64,000 bases of DNA. It comes from Colwellia sp. (GTDB taxonomy: Bacteria; Pseudomonadota; Gammaproteobacteria; Enterobacterales; Alteromonadaceae). Positions 45,199-62,100 of the stretch are shown here, in pieces; the stretch's first letter is position 1, and the number at the start of each line of letters is the position of its first letter. The DNA is taken from the NCBI GenBank assembly GCA_029938115.1, contig JAPYOP010000005.1, positions 66,623-130,622 of the forward strand. The letters are read 5' to 3'. Made by a program: the position numbers and the translations under genes. The notes beneath the pieces are model-generated. The model was not told the origin of the DNA, searched no databases, and was given only the letters and a program-made list of their open reading frames with translations.

Positions 45199-46070
45199 TG
45201 TCTATCTTAATTAATAAAGATACTAAAGTAATCTGTCAAGGTTTCACTGGTGGTCAAGGTACTTTCCACTCAGAGCAAGCTATTGATTACGGTACACAAA
45301 TGGTTGGTGGCGTAAGCCCAGGTAAAGGCGGTCAAACGCACCTTGGTTTACCAGTATTCAATACAGTACGTGAAGCAGTAGAAGCAACTGGCGCAACAGC
45401 TACAGTTATCTACGTTCCTGCTCCGTTCTGTAAAGATGCAATCTTAGAAGCGATTGATGCTGGCATTAAAATTATCATCACTATTACTGAAGGTATTCCA
45501 ACTTTAGATATGGTTGACGTTAAAGCTAAGCTTGATCAAACGGGTGTTCGTATGATTGGTCCTAACTGCCCAGGTGTTATCACGCCAGGTGAAACTAAGA
45601 TTGGTATCATGCCAGGTCATATCCATTTACCAGGTAAAGTTGGTATTGTTTCTCGCTCAGGTACGTTAACGTACGAAGCGGTTAAACAAACTACTGATTT
45701 CGGTTTCGGCCAATCTACTTGTGTAGGTATTGGTGGTGATCCGATTCCAGGTACTAACTTCATCGACGTATTGGAAATGTTCCAAAACGATCCTCAAACA
45801 GAAGCAATCGTAATGATTGGTGAAATTGGTGGTACAGCTGAAGAAGAAGCGGCGGAATATATCAAAGCTAACGTTACTAAACCTGTAGTATCTTACATTG
45901 CTGGTGTTACTGCACCAGAAGGTAAGCGTATGGGTCATGCTGGCGCAATTATCGCTGGTGGTAAAGGTACGGCTGAAGAGAAATTTGCTGCGCTTGAAGC
46001 AGCTGGTGTCAAGACTGTTCGTTCTTTAGCGGATATTGGTAAAGCACTTAAAGAGAAAACGGGTTGGTAG
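45198..46070 (+). CDS. sucD: succinyl-CoA synthetase subunit alpha
   Basis: Alpha chain that is phosphorylated on histidine and binds CoA. 290 residues: [71 protein letters not shown] and phosphohistidine in [18 protein letters not shown]. Overlaps sucC by one base. A terminator closes the operon. Confidence 0.99.
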
Positions 46071-46100
46071 GCGAGTAGCTTACAATTTGTAGTTCTTAAT

Positions 46101-46126
46101 AAAACCCGCTATCTAGCGGGTTTTTT
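46101..46126 (+). terminator. terminator after sucD
   Basis: CCCGCT (46105-46110), loop ATCT, AGCGGG (46115-46120), six T. A-rich 5' flank (46101-46104) extends the stem. Confidence 0.9.
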
Positions 46127-46139
46127 GCTTTTAAAAGTA

Positions 46140-46720
46140 GATAAAGAGATAGATAAATGGGGGCATGATAAATGGGGTCAGATTAACTTTAGGATTGAAG
46201 TTTGTATTTTTATAGTTGTCGGGGTGCCGACGACACTCAAAGGGATACTGTCTCCGGCATCCCTCGGAGCTGCGATCCAAACTTCATCTTGCATTCGTTC
46301 AAGTGTTTTCGACGTAACAGCACTGAACGGACATCCATGCCAGTCATACGTGAACACTTTTACTTATTTCAGCGTTTATTCACGCTGATTTTGTGGGCGT
46401 TGATAGGTTTGGTGATCATAACTCTTAACTTATTTTCTGAACGAGTAAAAAACTAGGGGTTAATTACAGTATGGAAACTTTGCAAAAAACTCTAATTCCC
46501 ATCTCCGCAATGAAATGGTAAACGAGCAAAGGCAAACCTCGACCCGAGACAGGACGTCGAGGGCTGCCGTTGTTCATGGACAACGGCAGATATCGTGGTT
46601 AGCGTTAGTTGATTATTGACTGCTTTGTTGGGGGAGAGGGATGCTGTAGGTAGTATCCCTTTAGGTGCAGTTCCTATTGCGACGTCAAGCAGATAAATAA
46701 GCTCCAATCACTAAATGTTG
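46140..46720. repeat. palindrome-rich region, probable decayed mobile or REP-type element
   Basis: About 580 bases with more G+C than the neighbours. It holds a tandem GATAAATGGGG (46152-46162, 46167-46177), the stems GTCGG/CCGAC and GGGAT/ATCCC near 46219-46264, CTCGAC/GTCGAG (46538-46561), and a perfect 10-bp stem CTGCCGTTGT/ACAACGGCAG (46564-46589). Short ORFs in it (for example the 39-residue ORF at 46337-46456 starting MPVIREHFYLF, with one membrane helix) have no RBS. The GGGGTCAGATTAACTTTAGG start resembles flanks of RAYT transposase-associated repeats. No transposase is left. Confidence 0.5.
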
Positions 46721-46736
46721 CTACATAGCTAAATAA

Positions 46737-47183
46737 CTAACTCATCTCCAGTAACTTATCCACTAACCATTTATCATCTTTTTTAATCAATCGAATTTTT
46801 TTATAATCTTTATAGGTATTACCATCACGTATGCCAGTGAACTGTATCATCATGGTTGCTTGAATATAATACTCATCAATGATTTTGGTTTTCTTAGCTG
46901 AGGTATGTAGTGAAACTGAGTCAAAACGCATGTTGAATAGACGGTGAGCTATGTTATTGGCGGTATGATATTTTTCTAACTCTTTTCTAAAGTCTGGGGT
47001 GCTTAATAACAGTGCTTTATTAACATTTTTTTCATTATATATAGCATTAAAAAATGATACTGCAACTTGTTGTTCTGAGATTTCTATTTTCTTTTCTTCT
47101 TGATTACAACCAAAAAGAAAGCTTGATAATAAAAGTAACAATACTAAATGTGAATTTTTAAAGAGGCTCATTAACTTATTCAT
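46737..47183 (-). CDS. hypothetical lipoprotein, 148 residues
   Basis: Signal peptide with lipobox LFGCNQ at about residue 26, then a soluble domain of about 120 residues with QQVAVSFFNAIYNEKNVNKALLLSTPDFRKEL and a basic C-terminus KIRLIKKDDKWLVDKLLEMS. Overall shape (a helix that recruits an N-terminal FFNAIY, followed by beta strands that end in DDKWLVD) resembles NTF2/DUF4878-like lipoproteins. Not identified. Ribosome binding site is weak. Lies between the repeat region and the DUF1653 gene. Confidence 0.7.
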   Translation of the reverse strand: MNKLMSLFKNSHLVLLLLLSSFLFGCNQEEKKIEISEQQVAVSFFNAIYNEKNVNKALLLSTPDFRKELEKYHTANNIAHRLFNMRFDSVSLHTSAKKTKIIDEYYIQATMMIQFTGIRDGNTYKDYKKIRLIKKDDKWLVDKLLEMS

Positions 47184-47301
47184 GTTTTCAGTCCATAGAA
47201 TTAATTGGGACGTATAAGTCTATACAGTTTAAACATACGATAAATTGTACTTAATTTCAATAACTGGCAAGGAGAAACAAGCTAATAATGTTCAGAAAAC
47301 C

Positions 47302-47508
47302 TTACTCCACGAACTGAAAGCGCTGAATACTTTTTCCATCCCTTACAATCACTTCATTAAACATATTTAAGGGTCGTACCCAGATATCATCAATATCGTT
47401 AAAAGAGTGATATACCACCAAGTATTCTTCTGTTTCACTATGCCTTGCGATGTGAAGCACTTGATAATAACTTCCTTTGAAATGCTGGTATTTTCCTAAC
47501 ATAATCAT
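47302..47508 (-). CDS. DUF1653 domain protein
   Basis: 68-residue protein containing the whole DUF1653 motif: GKYQHFKGSYYQVLHIARHSETEEYLVVYHSF, then IWVRPLNMFNEVI and GKSIQRFQFVE. Family function is unknown. Its members are small, cytoplasmic and predicted to fold as a beta barrel. AGGA precedes ATG at 47506-47508; a second in-frame ATG two codons later is an alternative. It is on the same strand as ilvI-ilvH, after a 70-base gap, so might be co-transcribed. Confidence 0.85.
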   Translation of the reverse strand: MIMLGKYQHFKGSYYQVLHIARHSETEEYLVVYHSFNDIDDIWVRPLNMFNEVIVRDGKSIQRFQFVE

Positions 47509-47579
47509 TAATGTTTTTCCTAAAATAAATGGTGAAGTCTTAAAGCTTTACCATTTTATAACTTAATTGTTTTAAAGCT

Positions 47580-48077
47580 TTAAACTCTTAAAGCTTTCTC
47601 TCCTCGTGCTATGCCAACACAGCCAGAACGGGCAGATTCAATAATCTCAGTTTCGTTGCTTAGCGTTTCAATAAAGGCATTTAGCTTGTCACTACTACCT
47701 GTTAACTCTATGGTATAAATTTGCTTTCCAATGTCGACAATTGAACCTCGAAAAATATCGCTGATCCGCTTTACTTCTGTCCGTGATTTATCATTCATGG
47801 CTGCAACTTTTACCAGCAGTAGTTCACGTTCAACGTGTTTTCTGTCAGTTAATTCAGATATTTTTATCACATCAACTAATTTATTTACTTGTTTTACTAT
47901 TTGTTCTAAGACTTTGTCGTCACCAATGGTTGCAATCGTTATTCTGGATAAGCTGCCATCATCAGTAGGTGCTACGGTTAAGCTTTCAATATTAAAAGCA
48001 CGTTGAGAAAAAAGTCCAACTATACGTGATAGCGCACCGGGTTCATTTTCTAATAAAATAGCTAAAATATGGCGCAT
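47580..48077 (-). CDS. ilvH: acetolactate synthase small (regulatory) subunit
   Basis: Regulatory subunit conferring valine feedback on acetohydroxyacid synthase. 165 residues, ACT domain ILLENEPGALSRIVGLFSQRAFNIESLTVAPTDDGSLSRITI and C-terminal domain ending GCVGIARGEKALRV. The start codon overlaps a TAA (TAATG at 48075-48079). That stop is not ilvI's own but that of the last of three tandem mini-ORFs. AAGGGAG, 10 bases before the ATG, lies in the mini-ORF tail. Confidence 0.98.
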   Translation of the reverse strand: MRHILAILLENEPGALSRIVGLFSQRAFNIESLTVAPTDDGSLSRITIATIGDDKVLEQIVKQVNKLVDVIKISELTDRKHVERELLLVKVAAMNDKSRTEVKRISDIFRGSIVDIGKQIYTIELTGSSDKLNAFIETLSNETEIIESARSGCVGIARGEKALRV

Positions 48078-48163
48078 TACGCTTTAACTCCCTTTTGTAT
48101 TATAACAACCCACATGTCATCAATGTTATTTGCTAAAGCCTTATTTGATGGAGAATGATACAT
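48077..48163 (-). CDS. mini-ORF 1 of the ilvI-ilvH tandem array
   Basis: 28 codons: starts MYHSPSNKALANN and ends IDDMWVVIIQKGVKA. Its TAA overlaps the ilvH ATG and its ATG overlaps the TAA of mini-ORF 2. The C-terminal part copies the IlvI tail ([12 protein letters not shown]) with a two-residue insertion. AAGGGAG is carried 10 bases before the next ATG. Whether the peptide is made or just a bridge for ribosomes is unknown. Confidence 0.5.
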   Translation of the reverse strand: MYHSPSNKALANNIDDMWVVIIQKGVKA

Positions 48164-48249
48164 TATGCTTTAACTCCCTTTTGTATTATAGCAACCCACA
48201 TGTCATCAATGTTATTTGCTAAAGTCTTATTTGATAGAGAATGATACAT
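48163..48249 (-). CDS. mini-ORF 2 of the ilvI-ilvH tandem array
   Basis: Second 86-bp unit, again 28 codons (MYHSLSNKTLANN, ending IDDMWVAIIQKGVKA). Pro to Leu at position 5 and a Thr at position 9 distinguish it from unit 1. TAATG overlaps on both ends. Because the unit length is not a multiple of three, each copy is in a different frame, and only the stop/start overlap keeps the chain readable. Confidence 0.5.
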   Translation of the reverse strand: MYHSLSNKTLANNIDDMWVAIIQKGVKA

Positions 48250-48335
48250 TACGCTTTAACTCCCTTTTGTATTATTGCAACCCACATGTCATCAATGTTA
48301 TTTGCTAAAGTCTTATTTGATGGAGAATGATGCAT
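48249..48335 (-). CDS. mini-ORF 3 of the ilvI-ilvH tandem array
   Basis: Third 28-codon unit ([13 protein letters not shown], ending IDDMWVAIIQKGVKA). Its ATG (48333-48335) overlaps the stop codon of ilvI (48335-48337), so ribosomes ending ilvI could re-start here, then pass through units 2 and 1 to ilvH. Confidence 0.5.
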   Translation of the reverse strand: MHHSPSNKTLANNIDDMWVAIIQKGVKA

Positions 48336-50062
48336 TATGCTTTAACTCCCTTGGCAATCCACATGTCATCAATGCCGCCTTGGCGAATATGCATTGGGTA
48401 CACGTGTTCTTTTTCATCAACTAAAACATCAACAAAAACAAGCTTGTTTTTAATATTAAATGCTTGCTCTAGCTTACTGTCAAGCTCATCTAATGTATCT
48501 ATTTTTATACCTATATGACCGTACGCTTCAGCTAACTTGGTAAAGTTAGGCAGCGACTCCATATAAGAAGATGAGTGCCTACCGTCATAAACCATATCTT
48601 GCCACTGTCGAACCATTCCTAATGAGCGGTTATTTAAGGTAATAATTACTACTGACAAGTTGTACTGTTTACAAGTAGACAATTCTTGAATGTTCATTTG
48701 AATTGAACCATCACCAGTAATACATATTACATGCTTATCAGGGAAGGCAAGTTTCGTCCCCATAGCCGCAGGTAAACCAAATCCCATCGTGCCAGCGCCG
48801 CCTGAATTGATCCATTGGCGAGGTTTTGCAAAGGGATAATATTGCGCGGCAAACATTTGATGCTGGCCAACATCTGAAGCTACATAAGCTTCACCTTTAG
48901 TTATTCTATACATTGCTTCTACAACACGCTGAGGTTTTATTTTTTCTCCTTCTACCTGCTTATAACTTACACTGCGCATATCTCTCCATAGATGAATTTG
49001 TTGCCACCACTCTTTTAGGGCTTCTTTGTTGGGGCTGTAATTAATCGTGCTAAGTTCATCAAGTAGTTGTTGCATAACAACATCAACCAAACCAACCACA
49101 GGTATATGTGCATTTATAGTTTTTGATATTGACGTAGGATCAATATCTACATGAATAATGGTTGCGTTCGGGCAGAATTTTTCTACATTATTGGTAACTC
49201 TGTCGTCAAAGCGAACACCAAGAGCAAGAATGACATCAGCATTAGCCATGGTTTTATTTGCTTCTAGACTGCCATGCATGCCTAACATGCCAACAAAGTT
49301 TTTATGCACGCCTGATATACCTCCAAGCCCCATTAACGTATTGGTAATAGGCGCTTTTAACGTTTCAACTAACTTAGTTAGTAGCTCAGAGGCATCAGCT
49401 AAAACAATGCCACCGCCGGAATAAATTACTAGTTTTTTCGCTTCATTAATCGTTTTTGCTGCTTTGCGAATTTGTTTTGGGTGTCCTTTAATATTTGGAT
49501 TATAAGAGCGTATTTTAACATTTGTTTCGATGCTAAATGGCGCCTTGTTTTGTGGAATGAGTAAATCCTTTGGCAGCTCAACAACAACAGGGCCAGGTCT
49601 TCCTGTACTGGCTATATAAAACGCTTTCGCAATAATATTCGGTATCTCGGCTAAATCACGACAATTAAAGCTGTGCTTAATAATAGGGCGGGTACAGCCA
49701 ACAATATCCGTTTCTTGGAAGGCATCATTACCTATTAAGGTTGTGGGTACTTGACCTGCTAATACAACCATAGGTATTGAATCCATATAAGCGGTAGCAA
49801 TACCAGTAACGCAGTTAGTAGCACCGGGACCTGAAGTTGCCAATACTACACCAACTTCGCCTGTGGCTCGAGTATAGCCATCGGCCATATGAGTAGCTGC
49901 TTGTTCATGGCGCACTAATATGTGTTCAATTTCGTCTTGTTGAAAAATAGCATCGTAAAGATCTAGTACTGAACCACCGGGGTAGCCAAAAATATACTTA
50001 ACCTTCATTGCTGAGAGTGCTTTAACAACCATTTCTGCACCAGTAAAAAGTTTTGTTGTCAT
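48335..50062 (-). CDS. ilvI: acetolactate synthase large (catalytic) subunit, IlvI type
   Basis: ThDP- and FAD-dependent first enzyme of valine/isoleucine/leucine synthesis. 575 residues, matching AHAS III large subunit. [39 protein letters not shown], catalytic glutamate in [34 protein letters not shown], ThDP motif [29 protein letters not shown] and C-terminal [18 protein letters not shown]. An upstream in-frame extension to 50188 runs into the attenuator terminator and is not used. The true ATG is at 50060-50062. Regulated by a leader-peptide attenuator (below). Its stop overlaps mini-ORF 3. Confidence 0.97.
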
Positions 50063-50188
50063 GTTGATACCTATTGTCTTATTGACTATTAAAATACACG
50101 CTTCTTGCCACTGCGACATACGACCACTAATGATGGTGGAAATGCTGCTTTTGCAGGAGCAAAAAAAATGCACGTTCATTCTGAACAT

Positions 50189-50226
50189 AAAAAACCCCCG
50201 GTCTAAATTAGAGCGAGGGTTTGGTT
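50189..50226 (-). terminator. ilvI attenuator terminator and antiterminator strand
   Basis: On the minus strand AAACCCTCG (50222-50214) pairs with CGGGGGTTT (50200-50192; one G-T pair), a G/C-rich stem followed by six T (50194-50189). AACCAAACCCTC (50226-50215) can pair instead with GAGGTTTAGGTT (50281-50270) at the end of the leader peptide gene, which would destroy the terminator. This is a textbook attenuator arrangement. It lies ~125 bases before ilvI. Confidence 0.8.
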
Positions 50227-50255
50227 ATTTATTTGCTTACTTGTCTATTTAAAAA

Positions 50256-50351
50256 TTAACATTTAGCACAACCTAAACCTCGTAATGATTTGACTATCAC
50301 TACGACCATGAGGACGACATTGAGCTTGTTTTTATTATTGATTGAAAACAT
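50256..50351 (-). CDS. ilv leader peptide
   Basis: A 31-codon ORF that begins MFSINNKNKLN, has a run VVLMVVVIV of branched-chain codons and ends SLRGLGCAKC. The codons for R-G-L-G-C immediately after form one strand of the antiterminator. Ribosome stalling on Val/Ile/Leu codons would expose it. Analogous to IlvL and IvbL in E. coli but with no sequence identity claimed. The ATG has no strong RBS; a later in-frame ATG at 50309 would leave a 17-residue MVVVIV peptide with the same effect. Confidence 0.7.
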   Translation of the reverse strand: MFSINNKNKLNVVLMVVVIVKSLRGLGCAKC

Positions 50352-50401
50352 ATGTTAATTAAATATAATTCTTCGTTGACCAAGATTAATGCTTAGCTCT
50401 A

Positions 50402-50430
50402 TTTTTAAAGGGTTTAGCTATGATAGTCAA
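50402..50430 (-). promoter_or_regulatory. ilvI-ilvH promoter
   Basis: On the minus strand TTGACT (50430-50425), 17 bases, TAAAAA (50407-50402): good -35, moderate -10. Transcription from about 50395 would run through the leader peptide and attenuator. The rest of 50352-50645 is AT-rich and includes the unresolved promoter of the divergent lipoprotein gene. Confidence 0.55.
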
Positions 50431-50645
50431 CCATTAAATATCAAAGTGACAATTTTTATTGAAATTTAATAAGACTGTTCACCTTAAATGATAATAAAAG
50501 TATAAAACAATGTTAATTACTTGTTTGCACTGTTTTAGTTTTTCATTATGAATTATAGTTATTAAAATTACATTTATTGACAATATTATTTAAATGTTTA
50601 GGTTAGTCTTTAAATATCAACAATAAACTAAAAACGGAAGGATTT

Positions 50646-59115: not shown

Positions 59116-62100
59116 TTATAAGCTAGGGTTTGTTGCTTCAGCAGAGCTTCTGCTTATTGCATCAGCTGAAATAGCACTACGACCTGAAACCTGATGCGCC
59201 ATACGATCTTCACTGGCCATAAAGCTAGTTGGGATTTCATTAATGGTGGTAATAGTTTCAGTTTTTGTCATTGGTGATGAAGCATGACCAGATAAACGAT
59301 TAGCTTTTTTCACTTGTCTTGCTAATTTTTTATCCTTGTTAGGTGACTTTTTAACTGCTTTAGTTGCAGCTTTTTTCACTTTAGCTTTTGGTGCTGGCTT
59401 CTCTTCTTTTATTTCAGTTTCAGTTTTAGCTTCAACTTCTTCAGTAATCTTTACTGGTTCTTCAATTACTGTTGTTTCACTAGCCTCTTGCTTAACGGCT
59501 TGAGTATCTTCTGTATTGTTAACAGCATCTTCATTTACATCTGTTTCTAGCTCAATTGTTTCTTGAACTGGTTCTGCAGTGCTAACGGGGTCACTTACTT
59601 GAGAAGGCTCAACTTTTTCAACTTCAGCAAGTTCTGGCTCTTTGACAGTGTTTTCATCAGCAGCCTCACTTTTATCTGAACTTGCAACTTGCGCTTCAAC
59701 TACAACTTCTGTTGATTGTACTTCTTCAACGTTAGTTTCGTTAAAAGGTAAGTCTTGCTGTATTTCTTCAGAAACTACCTGTTTAACCACATTTTCTTCA
59801 ACATCGTTATTTACTGTTTCAGTTGCCGGTTCTTGAACCGTGCTAGTTGCAGGGGTCTCTGTTTCAGTTGCCGGTTCTTGAACAGTGCTTGTTGCAGGGG
59901 TCTCTGTTTCATGAGTTTCAGTTTGCGGGCTCACTGCTTCAGGGTAACGAGCTTCAATAGCTTGATTGCTTTCTTCTGCAATATCAGCAACTGGCTCTTG
60001 TACTACATCATCTGTGTTCTTCTCACGATGTCTACGTTGGCCATTAGAACGCAAATGTCTCGGTGAACGTCTACTGCGTGGACGCTCATCTTTGTTGCCT
60101 TTGTTTTCTTGGTTAACTTCTTGAGAAGCTACTTGCTCAACGTTGTTATTTTCTTGCTCTTTATTAACAACATCCGTGTTTGATTCAGTAATAACATTCA
60201 AAGCTTTATTTGTTACTTCTTGTTCTACCTTCGTTTTATAAACACGTACTTTTTTACGGTTAGTTCTACGCTGGCGACGTTCTGTAGCAACTTCTTCTTT
60301 TACTGGTTTGTTTTTGTCATGTTCAGGTTTACGATTTTGTCCTTTGGCTTTTTGAGCAGGCTTATTAACATCGTCTCGATCATTGCGTGTATTGCGGCCT
60401 TTATCGCTTGGTTTTACATTTTTATTGTTAGTGCGCTCAGTATTGCGTTCATCATTACGATTACCGCCACGGTTATTGCGTGTATTACCACGACGTTGAC
60501 CTTGACGACCTCGTTGTTGACCTCGGTTATCTTGACGTTTAGGCTTGCTTTCAGGTGCTTTTTCTTCTTTAACTGCTTCTTCAGAAGTAAATAAACCTTT
60601 TAACCAAGTAAAGAAACCTGCTGGCTTAGCTTCTGATTTCGTTGCTGTCTTAGGGGCTACGACAGTTGCTGTTTCACTAACGGGTGCAACCTTTGGAGCA
60701 GCCATACCTTGACCCATAGCTTGGATCAGAGGCTCATCACGTTTAGTAACCTCCTTATCAAATTTAGGCATTTTAGCTTCTTCAAGCTCTGCTTCTTTAA
60801 TTGAAATATCGTAGCTTGCTTCAGCAACAGTATCATCGTTTTTAACACGCAACACTTCATATTGAGGTGTATCCATATGCGGGTTAGGAATAATTAATAC
60901 ACGAACACCATGGTGTTTCTCAATGTGCATAACCGAACGACGTTTTTCATTCAATAAATAAGTTGCGACAGGAACAGGCACTTGCGCTTGAACATGCTGT
61001 GTGTTTTCTTTAATGGCTTCTTCTTCCATTAAGCGCAATATAGATAATGCTAATGATTCAACACCACGTACTTGGCCTGTACCACTACAACGTGGACAAA
61101 CGCCTTGGCTAGTTTCACCAATAGAAGGGCGTAAACGCTGACGGGACATTTCTAACAAACCAAAGCGAGAAATGCGGCCTAGTTGAATGCGCGCTCTGTC
61201 TTGTCGGACTGAATCACGCATGCGATTTTCAACTTCACGTTGATGGCGAACAGGTGTCATATCAATGAAGTCGATAACAACCAAACCACCTAAATCACGC
61301 AAACGTAATTGACGAGCAACTTCTTCTGCTGCTTCTAAATTGGTATTAAAGGCTGTTTCTTCAATATCACTACCTTTAGTTGCGCGGGCAGAGTTGATAT
61401 CGATAGAGGTCATTGCTTCTGTTGGGTCAATAACAATAGAACCACCAGAAGGTAAGCGCACTTCACGTTGGAAAGCTGTTTCAATTTGCGTTTCTATTTG
61501 ATAGTGAGTAAATAAAGGTACATCACTACTATACAGTTTGATTTTGTTTAAGAAATCAGGACGAACAACCTCAATGTGCTTTTTAACACTCTCGAAAGTT
61601 TTCGGGCGATCAATTAATACTTCACCAATATCACGTCGTAAATAATCACGAATAGCACGTAATATTAAGTTTGTTTCTTGGTGAATTAAAAAGGGAGCAG
61701 AGCGACTTTCAGCTGCATCGCTGATAGCTTTCCAATGGTGTAGTAATACATTTAAATCCCATTCTAATTCTTCGTACGCTTTACCAACACCTGCAGTACG
61801 AACAATTAAGCCCATACCTTTTGGTAAGTCTAGCTTGCTTAGAGAGGTTTTTAATTCAGTACGTTCATCACCTTCAATGCGACGAGAAATACCGCCAGCA
61901 CGAGGGTTATTTGGCATTAATACTAAATAACTTCCGGCTAAGCTGATAAAGGTTGTTAACGCAGCACCTTTTTGACCACGTTCTTCTTTATCTATTTGAA
62001 CGATGACCTCTTGGCCTTCGCGTAATACTTCTTTAATGTTAGGGCGGCCTTGAAAGCTGTAACCCTTAGGGAAGTATTCACGAGCAATTTCTTTCATTGG

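Follow-up and report, generated by a model that had tools for sequence, protein, structure and literature searches.

Chained mini-ORFs between ilvI and ilvH in Colwellia: a probable ribosome hand-over array derived from an overlapping gene junction

Translational coupling at overlaps between a stop and the next start codon is reported for 13 of 14 tested gene pairs (PMC6728339), and among natural spacings −4 is described as the most enriched, followed by −1 and −8 (PMC12548453). In axe-txe, a minigene just upstream is reported to act in cis and raise the expression of the gene that follows (PMC8708949), and in the synthetic nfORF booster an upstream short ORF, with the ribosome binding site beside its stop, is likewise described to raise expression (PMC13255528). 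Mycobacterial interspersed repetitive units (MIRUs), such as that of senX3-regX3, are described as short intergenic units whose ORF is coupled to the downstream gene (PMC12548453); they occur in tandem in variable number, with three 77-bp units reported in H37Rv (PMC4213456). No report of mini-ORFs at ilvIH was found among the titles and abstracts listed in our literature search, which covered few subscription journals, and "Colwellia" together with "ilvH" gave no match.

The window analysed here, a stretch of 64,000 nucleotides from the draft genome of a marine Colwellia, contains such short ORFs between the genes for the two acetolactate synthase subunits (Table 1). The ilvI–ilvH gap (48077–48335, minus strand) consists of three 86-bp units with one 28-codon ORF each, and a 1-nt stop/start overlap (TAATG) is found at every junction from the ilvI stop through the ilvH start. 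TRF described the array with a period of 86, 3.2 copies, 95% matches and no indels. The sequence-only reading, made from the letters of the window, had proposed chained ORFs with TAATG junctions and an AAGGGAG ahead of each start; the former were borne out by the sequence, the ORF list and TRF, and the latter by the four sites read in the sequence. Its claim that the peptides copy the IlvI tail holds for the ending IDDMW...KGVKA, but the copy is limited to the IlvI end, and IDDMW is separated from KGVKA by three residues more than in IlvI. The copies are nearly alike, with 2–3 nonsynonymous (N) and 1–2 synonymous (S) changes per pair. The likely start of ilvI is the Met of MTTKLF at ~50062, as the close relatives G019 and G426 align from residue 39–40.

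Table 1. Features of the ilvI–ilvH region in the window
Feature	Position	Strand	Basis
ilvI, acetolactate synthase large subunit	48335..50188	minus	Pfam TPP_enzyme_N, M and C
SD-like AAGGGAG inside ilvI tail, 5' of mini-ORF 1	48346..48352	minus	read from sequence
mini-ORF 1, 28 codons, starts within ilvI stop (TAATG)	48249..48335	minus	sequence and ORF list
SD-like AAGGGAG inside mini-ORF 1, 5' of mini-ORF 2	48260..48266	minus	read from sequence
mini-ORF 2, MYHSLSNKTLANNIDDMWVAIIQKGVKA*, TAATG at both ends	48163..48249	minus	sequence and ORF list
SD-like AAGGGAG inside mini-ORF 2, 5' of mini-ORF 3	48174..48180	minus	read from sequence
mini-ORF 3, MYHSPSNKALANNIDDMWVVIIQKGVKA*, TAA overlapping the ilvH ATG	48077..48163	minus	sequence and ORF list
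SD-like AAGGGAG inside mini-ORF 3, 5' of ilvH	48088..48094	minus	read from sequence
ilvH, acetolactate synthase regulatory subunit (ACT domain)	47580..48077	minus	Pfam ACT_AHAS_ss, ALS_ss_C

The array was also screened for other kinds of element. It folds worse than most of its shuffles (z +1.58) and shows no strong fold, and Rfam at the gathering score gave no match within 46000–50600. TGnTATAAT-like strings were seen by eye in two of the array copies; a promoter role of the array was rejected, as the promoter scan listed no promoter-like site within it and no excess over 47500–50600 (10 vs 11.5 expected). Neither a plasmid nor a phage match was found for the window array, nor a phage match for that of C. 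piezophila. On the plus strand (48069–48330), the same array holds chained 29-aa ORFs that overlap by ATGA. Among the 16 spacer loci described below, an antisense frame is open over the first unit in eight, and it is not always the same one; the antisense chain was therefore rejected as a feature and treated as a by-product.

Several further elements of the window were recorded in their own right. Upstream of ilvI lies a leader ORF, MFSINNKNKLNVVLMVVVIVKSLRGLGCAKC* (50256–50351, minus strand), with a terminator-like stem at ~50188–50222 and then a T run on its 3' side, in a region that folds with z −3.87; leader ORF and hairpin look like a branched-chain amino-acid attenuator. A loose V/I/L-rich short-ORF pattern upstream of ilvI was matched in 72 of 79 relatives, some of the matches plainly by chance. 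At 59814–59911, a unit of 45 bp is repeated in tandem (2.2 copies with 96% matches), and the intergenic stretch at 46130–46460 is of the GGGGTCAGATTAACTTTA type, which we take to resemble REP/RAYT-associated sequence.

To place the array among relatives, 205 loci were read, from 124 genomes and 80 further loci partly of the same genomes; both genes were readable at 202, giving 125 distinct ilvI–ilvH junctions in the family. This survey covers part of the family, since an ilvH match was obtained in 320 of 395 sampled family genomes and many distant members lie outside it. A bare 1-nt stop/start overlap was found at 106 of the 125 junctions (91 TAATG and 14 TGATG by script, plus L141, whose IlvI match broke early and which was scored as "no spacer" by eye), so the overlap is the family's rule. 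Gaps of 0–3 nt occur at three junctions and spacers of 73–483 nt at 16, all of the latter within the window's genus (mostly Colwellia). In every one of these spacers, one to four chained mini-ORFs fill the whole distance between the ilvI stop and the ilvH start; L003 is a doubtful case, as the repeat is cut by the beginning of its contig. Twelve loci have one unit, Colwellia sp. 75C3 (L028) has two, the window and C. piezophila have three and Colwellia sp. TT2012 has four. The sequence-only reading had named a copy-number comparison at this junction as a check, and unit number indeed varies from 0 to 4 between species. In a 17th genome, C. marinimaniae, the ilvI and ilvH contigs both end within a TT2012-type mini-ORF, as expected of a collapsed array, which probably has more than one unit. 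Altogether, 17 of the 39 genus genomes (mostly Colwellia, two Litorilituus) have mini-ORFs at the junction, 20 have the bare overlap and two are unreadable, namely G017 (ilvH fragment only) and G035 (ilvI fragment, no ilvH). The mini-ORF spacer was found at none of 89 distinct junctions outside the genus and at none of 17 junctions from the order's other families, where spacings run from −8 to +2. Two loci deserve separate mention. In the 3.0-Mb genome G017 (L187/L273), ilvH survives only as a remnant of ~41 residues, and the best ilvI match, at 41% identity, is not a close one. The mini-ORF of L003 (genome G030), inside which the contig starts, repeats a long part of the ilvI-like tail that lies upstream, and the locus may belong to an array larger than the part seen or stem from a recent conversion.

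What is shared by these spacers is the frame, the overlap and the Shine–Dalgarno (SD) sequence. The sense frame is stop-free over the first unit at 16 of 16 junctions, whereas the +1 frame is open at one and the +2 frame at none. All 24 mini-ORF starts have an SD-like sequence 9–13 nt ahead, three of them a mere 4-base match at 12–13 nt, and GGAG stands 9–10 nt 5' of the ilvH start at all 16 spacer-bearing junctions. Single-unit spacers of clade 1 (the window's clade, see below) measure 73, 79, 85, 97, 100 and, doubtfully, 136 nt, with all differences being multiples of three. In clade 2, the mini-ORFs of L019, L024 and L028 end in another frame and with another C-terminus than those of L025 and L084; there an 8-nt overlap, ATGCSTAG, joins stop and start and the chain is intact. 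Base-shuffled cores remain open with a probability of 0.04–0.34 each, values that should not be naively multiplied as the units are related. Given the observed substitutions, the chance of an open frame is P 0.13–0.91 per unit pair, so no single pair is decisive for selection.

Self-chaining alone is weak evidence, because a gapless tandem unit with a spanning ORF chains itself, and the plus strand chains too. A control for chained spacers used 464 kb, made up of the window and 20 segments of 20 kb each from relative G010, with genes defined as ORFs of at least 90 codons and −1 and −8 overlaps scored, −4 being left out. It yielded 238 same-strand neighbour pairs, 137 of them with gaps of 40–600 nt and ten directly coupled by −1 or −8 overlap. 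Two tiled spacers were obtained, the ilvI–ilvH array and one other that by eye has no SD. The strong part of the case against chance is conservation among relatives.

The feature falls into two clades of the genus, with 11 of 14 rows in clade 1 and 5 of 18 rows in clade 2. These were taken from a tree of 106 rows, made by a quick method with the IlvI tail and IlvH head excluded; the tree left out 19 of 125 rows, all below 72% IlvH identity, retained five such rows as outgroup and had the L003 row only 27% filled. Parsimony on this tree gave eight changes of the feature, at least five of them on starred branches. The two clades differ in the gene that their mini-ORFs resemble. On the one hand, clade-1 mini-ORFs end like IlvI. 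Compared with the ilvI tail of its own locus, the window unit scores z 11.4, and z 8.4 once the SD part is removed; without that part, a clear match is kept by four of 11 clade-1 units (L001, L003, L010 and L012; z 4.7–43), L011 is weak (z 2.7) and six (L004, L005, L006, L008, L009 and L015) show no match (z 0.2–1.6). On the other hand, clade-2 mini-ORFs begin like IlvH (MRRILA...), and five of five units resemble the ilvH head of their own locus (z 10.4–15.5). A 34-nt direct repeat flanks the L025 unit. An ORF with an ilvH head and an ilvI tail is just what would result from a duplication across the junction. Among clade-1 units, however, none has a clear match to the ilvH head (z 3.6 in L003 and 3.2 in L015 at best), so that for the window's family the junction-spanning duplication is inferred rather than directly visible. 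Junction-derived sequence can be seen in nine of the 16 spacer loci, and the other seven would have arisen likewise.

Taken together, we put a probability of about 0.65 on the array being a chain of ribosome hand-over ORFs that arose by duplication at the overlapping ilvI/ilvH junction. Ordinarily in the family, the ilvI stop and ilvH start share TAATG and an SD lies in the ilvI tail, and a ribosome finishing ilvI could restart at ilvH, as the anatomy and the work on overlaps elsewhere would predict. A junction-spanning duplication would then produce a short intervening ORF that starts at the former ilvH start and ends like ilvI. This ORF would be tolerated if its frame puts the stop on the next start with the SD retained, and duplications would persist only when each new ORF passes ribosomes to the next start. 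The window's clade would have kept the mini-ORF as a unit of 24–45 codons, and the window genome would recently have triplicated it as 86-bp units. Selection most likely keeps translation continuous up to the ilvH start, with the peptide mostly a by-product; ribosomes would travel along the chain, and the benefit would lie in the coupling and not in a set ratio. The comparisons suggest that evolution protects the unbroken handover more than the small peptides. A point against the account is that clade 1 has kept DNA that is dispensable, which speaks for something beyond tolerance. The mini-ORFs of the two clades may or may not share a single origin. A recent junction amplification tolerated through coupling had been put forward by the sequence-only reading. 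Such a tolerated amplification is well supported, given the match of the unit core to the ilvI tail, the 0–4 units of relatives and the chain intact at all spacer-bearing junctions. The amplification is not simply recent, because the mini-ORF is present in most clade-1 rows and across pairs with saturated or near-saturated synonymous divergence; only the triplication in the window, whose units are 96% identical, looks recent.

The same reading had also offered a relay that tunes the IlvI:IlvH ratio, which fits the anatomy and is possible. Under this explanation, each extra termination–reinitiation step would shift the amount of IlvH made per IlvI, with the number of units (0–4) as a dial that repeat recombination could adjust. 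In its fullest form, a lineage-specific dial of 1–4 hand-over ORFs, built in two clades from different junction ends, would set the ratio of catalytic to regulatory subunit. The spread of 0, 1, 2, 3 and 4 units across species, with C. marinimaniae probably above one, the direct repeat around the L025 unit and the presence of mini-ORFs in 11 of 14 clade-1 rows are all in line with it. However, 20 of the 37 readable genus genomes do without them, even close sisters (L025 with, L027 without), and we regard selected tuning, and the dial with it, as unlikely, though the first of the alternatives to keep in mind.

That the unit encodes a functional micropeptide, which would act on the enzyme as a mimic of the IlvI tail or of the ACT head of IlvH, appears more doubtful still. 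Between species, changes in four pairs fell on the three codon positions as 14/9/29, the third-position count (null mean 18.1) being reached in 0 of 1000 simulations, with N 33 vs 38.0 expected (P 0.051); a second choice of species pairs gave 15/12/28 (P 0.004) and N 34 vs 40.3 (P 0.024). This third-position excess hints at some peptide constraint in the sequences. Shared motifs point the same way, namely NIDD(M/I)W in the window, L010 and L012, and the clade-2 head RILA-x2-(V/L)-M-x2-(E/D)-N in five of five loci (RVLA in the first copy of L019). But within arrays no constraint was detected (codon positions 11/12/9, N 26 vs 23.8 expected, first and last 8 codons excluded), and the peptides of L004, L009 and L010 are hardly alike. 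Moreover, clade 2 uses two C-terminal frames, many relatives wholly lack the mini-ORF and the three window peptides had no Pfam match. In near pairs, the mini-ORF has dN 0.075–0.239 and dS 0.073–0.775, compared with dN 0.015–0.039 and dS 0.41–0.91 in the flanking ilvI and ilvH. From these values and the third-position data, constraint on the peptide is far weaker than on the neighbouring genes, though the peptide is perhaps not free. For the two closest pairs, dS of the mini-ORF (0.07 and 0.13, resting on 1–2 changes) falls below that of the flanking genes (0.41–0.67).

It is very improbable that the array represents a mobile repeat of MIRU type whose insertion sites are start codons. The layout is alike, with tandem short units whose ORFs are described as coupled to the next gene (PMC12548453, PMC2734929), but the unit core matches ilvI itself and the window unit, which the dispersal search covered, is not interspersed, which contradicts this reading for that unit. 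In its own genome, the search returned the three units and the ilvI tail, then only 14–26-nt matches with E of at least 0.018, the next off-locus match being 21 nt (E 0.018). In 38 other genus genomes, both matches below 1e-5 (G010 and G014) lie at ilvIH; two further ones, of 22 nt (E 2e-4) and 29 nt (E 3e-4), come next, are found at other places and look like chance. Assembly artefact or chance is scarcely credible: the draft genome has 278 contigs, but the copies differ at defined sites, the array runs through within a contig of 132,880 bases, and independent arrays occur in other assemblies (L019, L028 and L084).

The hand-over chain offers a natural experiment on translational coupling, in which the same junction holds 0, 1, 2, 3 or 4 hand-over ORFs in related species and the peptide drifts while the stop/start overlap and the SD persist, and this series is a direct way to measure the summed reinitiation losses over successive short ORFs. 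It also suggests that overlap-coupled junctions can take up duplications and that tiny ORFs come into being within operons in this way. Such mini-ORFs may be missed by annotation.

Among described systems, MIRUs share with the window array its tandem layout of ~40–100-bp intergenic units (here 86 bp × 3). Copy number, which varies between strains in MIRUs, here runs from 0 to 4 in a comparison across species. They differ in that MIRUs, as described, are scattered over 41 loci (PMC2734929) and apparently mobile, whereas the window unit is confined to one locus and its core matches the junction's own gene. MIRU ORFs are reported to couple at −4, compared with −1 (TAATG) in the window and −1 or −8 in relatives, and the senX3-regX3 region is reported to have promoter activity (PMC4213456), while none was seen in the scan of the array. 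Being neither interspersed nor of MIRU spacing, the window unit is MIRU-like but not a MIRU, and seems to have arisen in place. Two-codon or engineered ORFs are used in axe-txe and nfORF, whereas this array is natural, tandem in some species and placed within an operon behind a long gene. The likeness to translationally coupled overlapping genes lies in the stop/start overlap at each junction of 16 of 16 spacer loci (L003 doubtful) and in the SD ahead of the second gene, for which termination–reinitiation would be the expected mechanism; the difference is that ORFs of 24–45 codons, up to four of them, are here interposed between the two genes.
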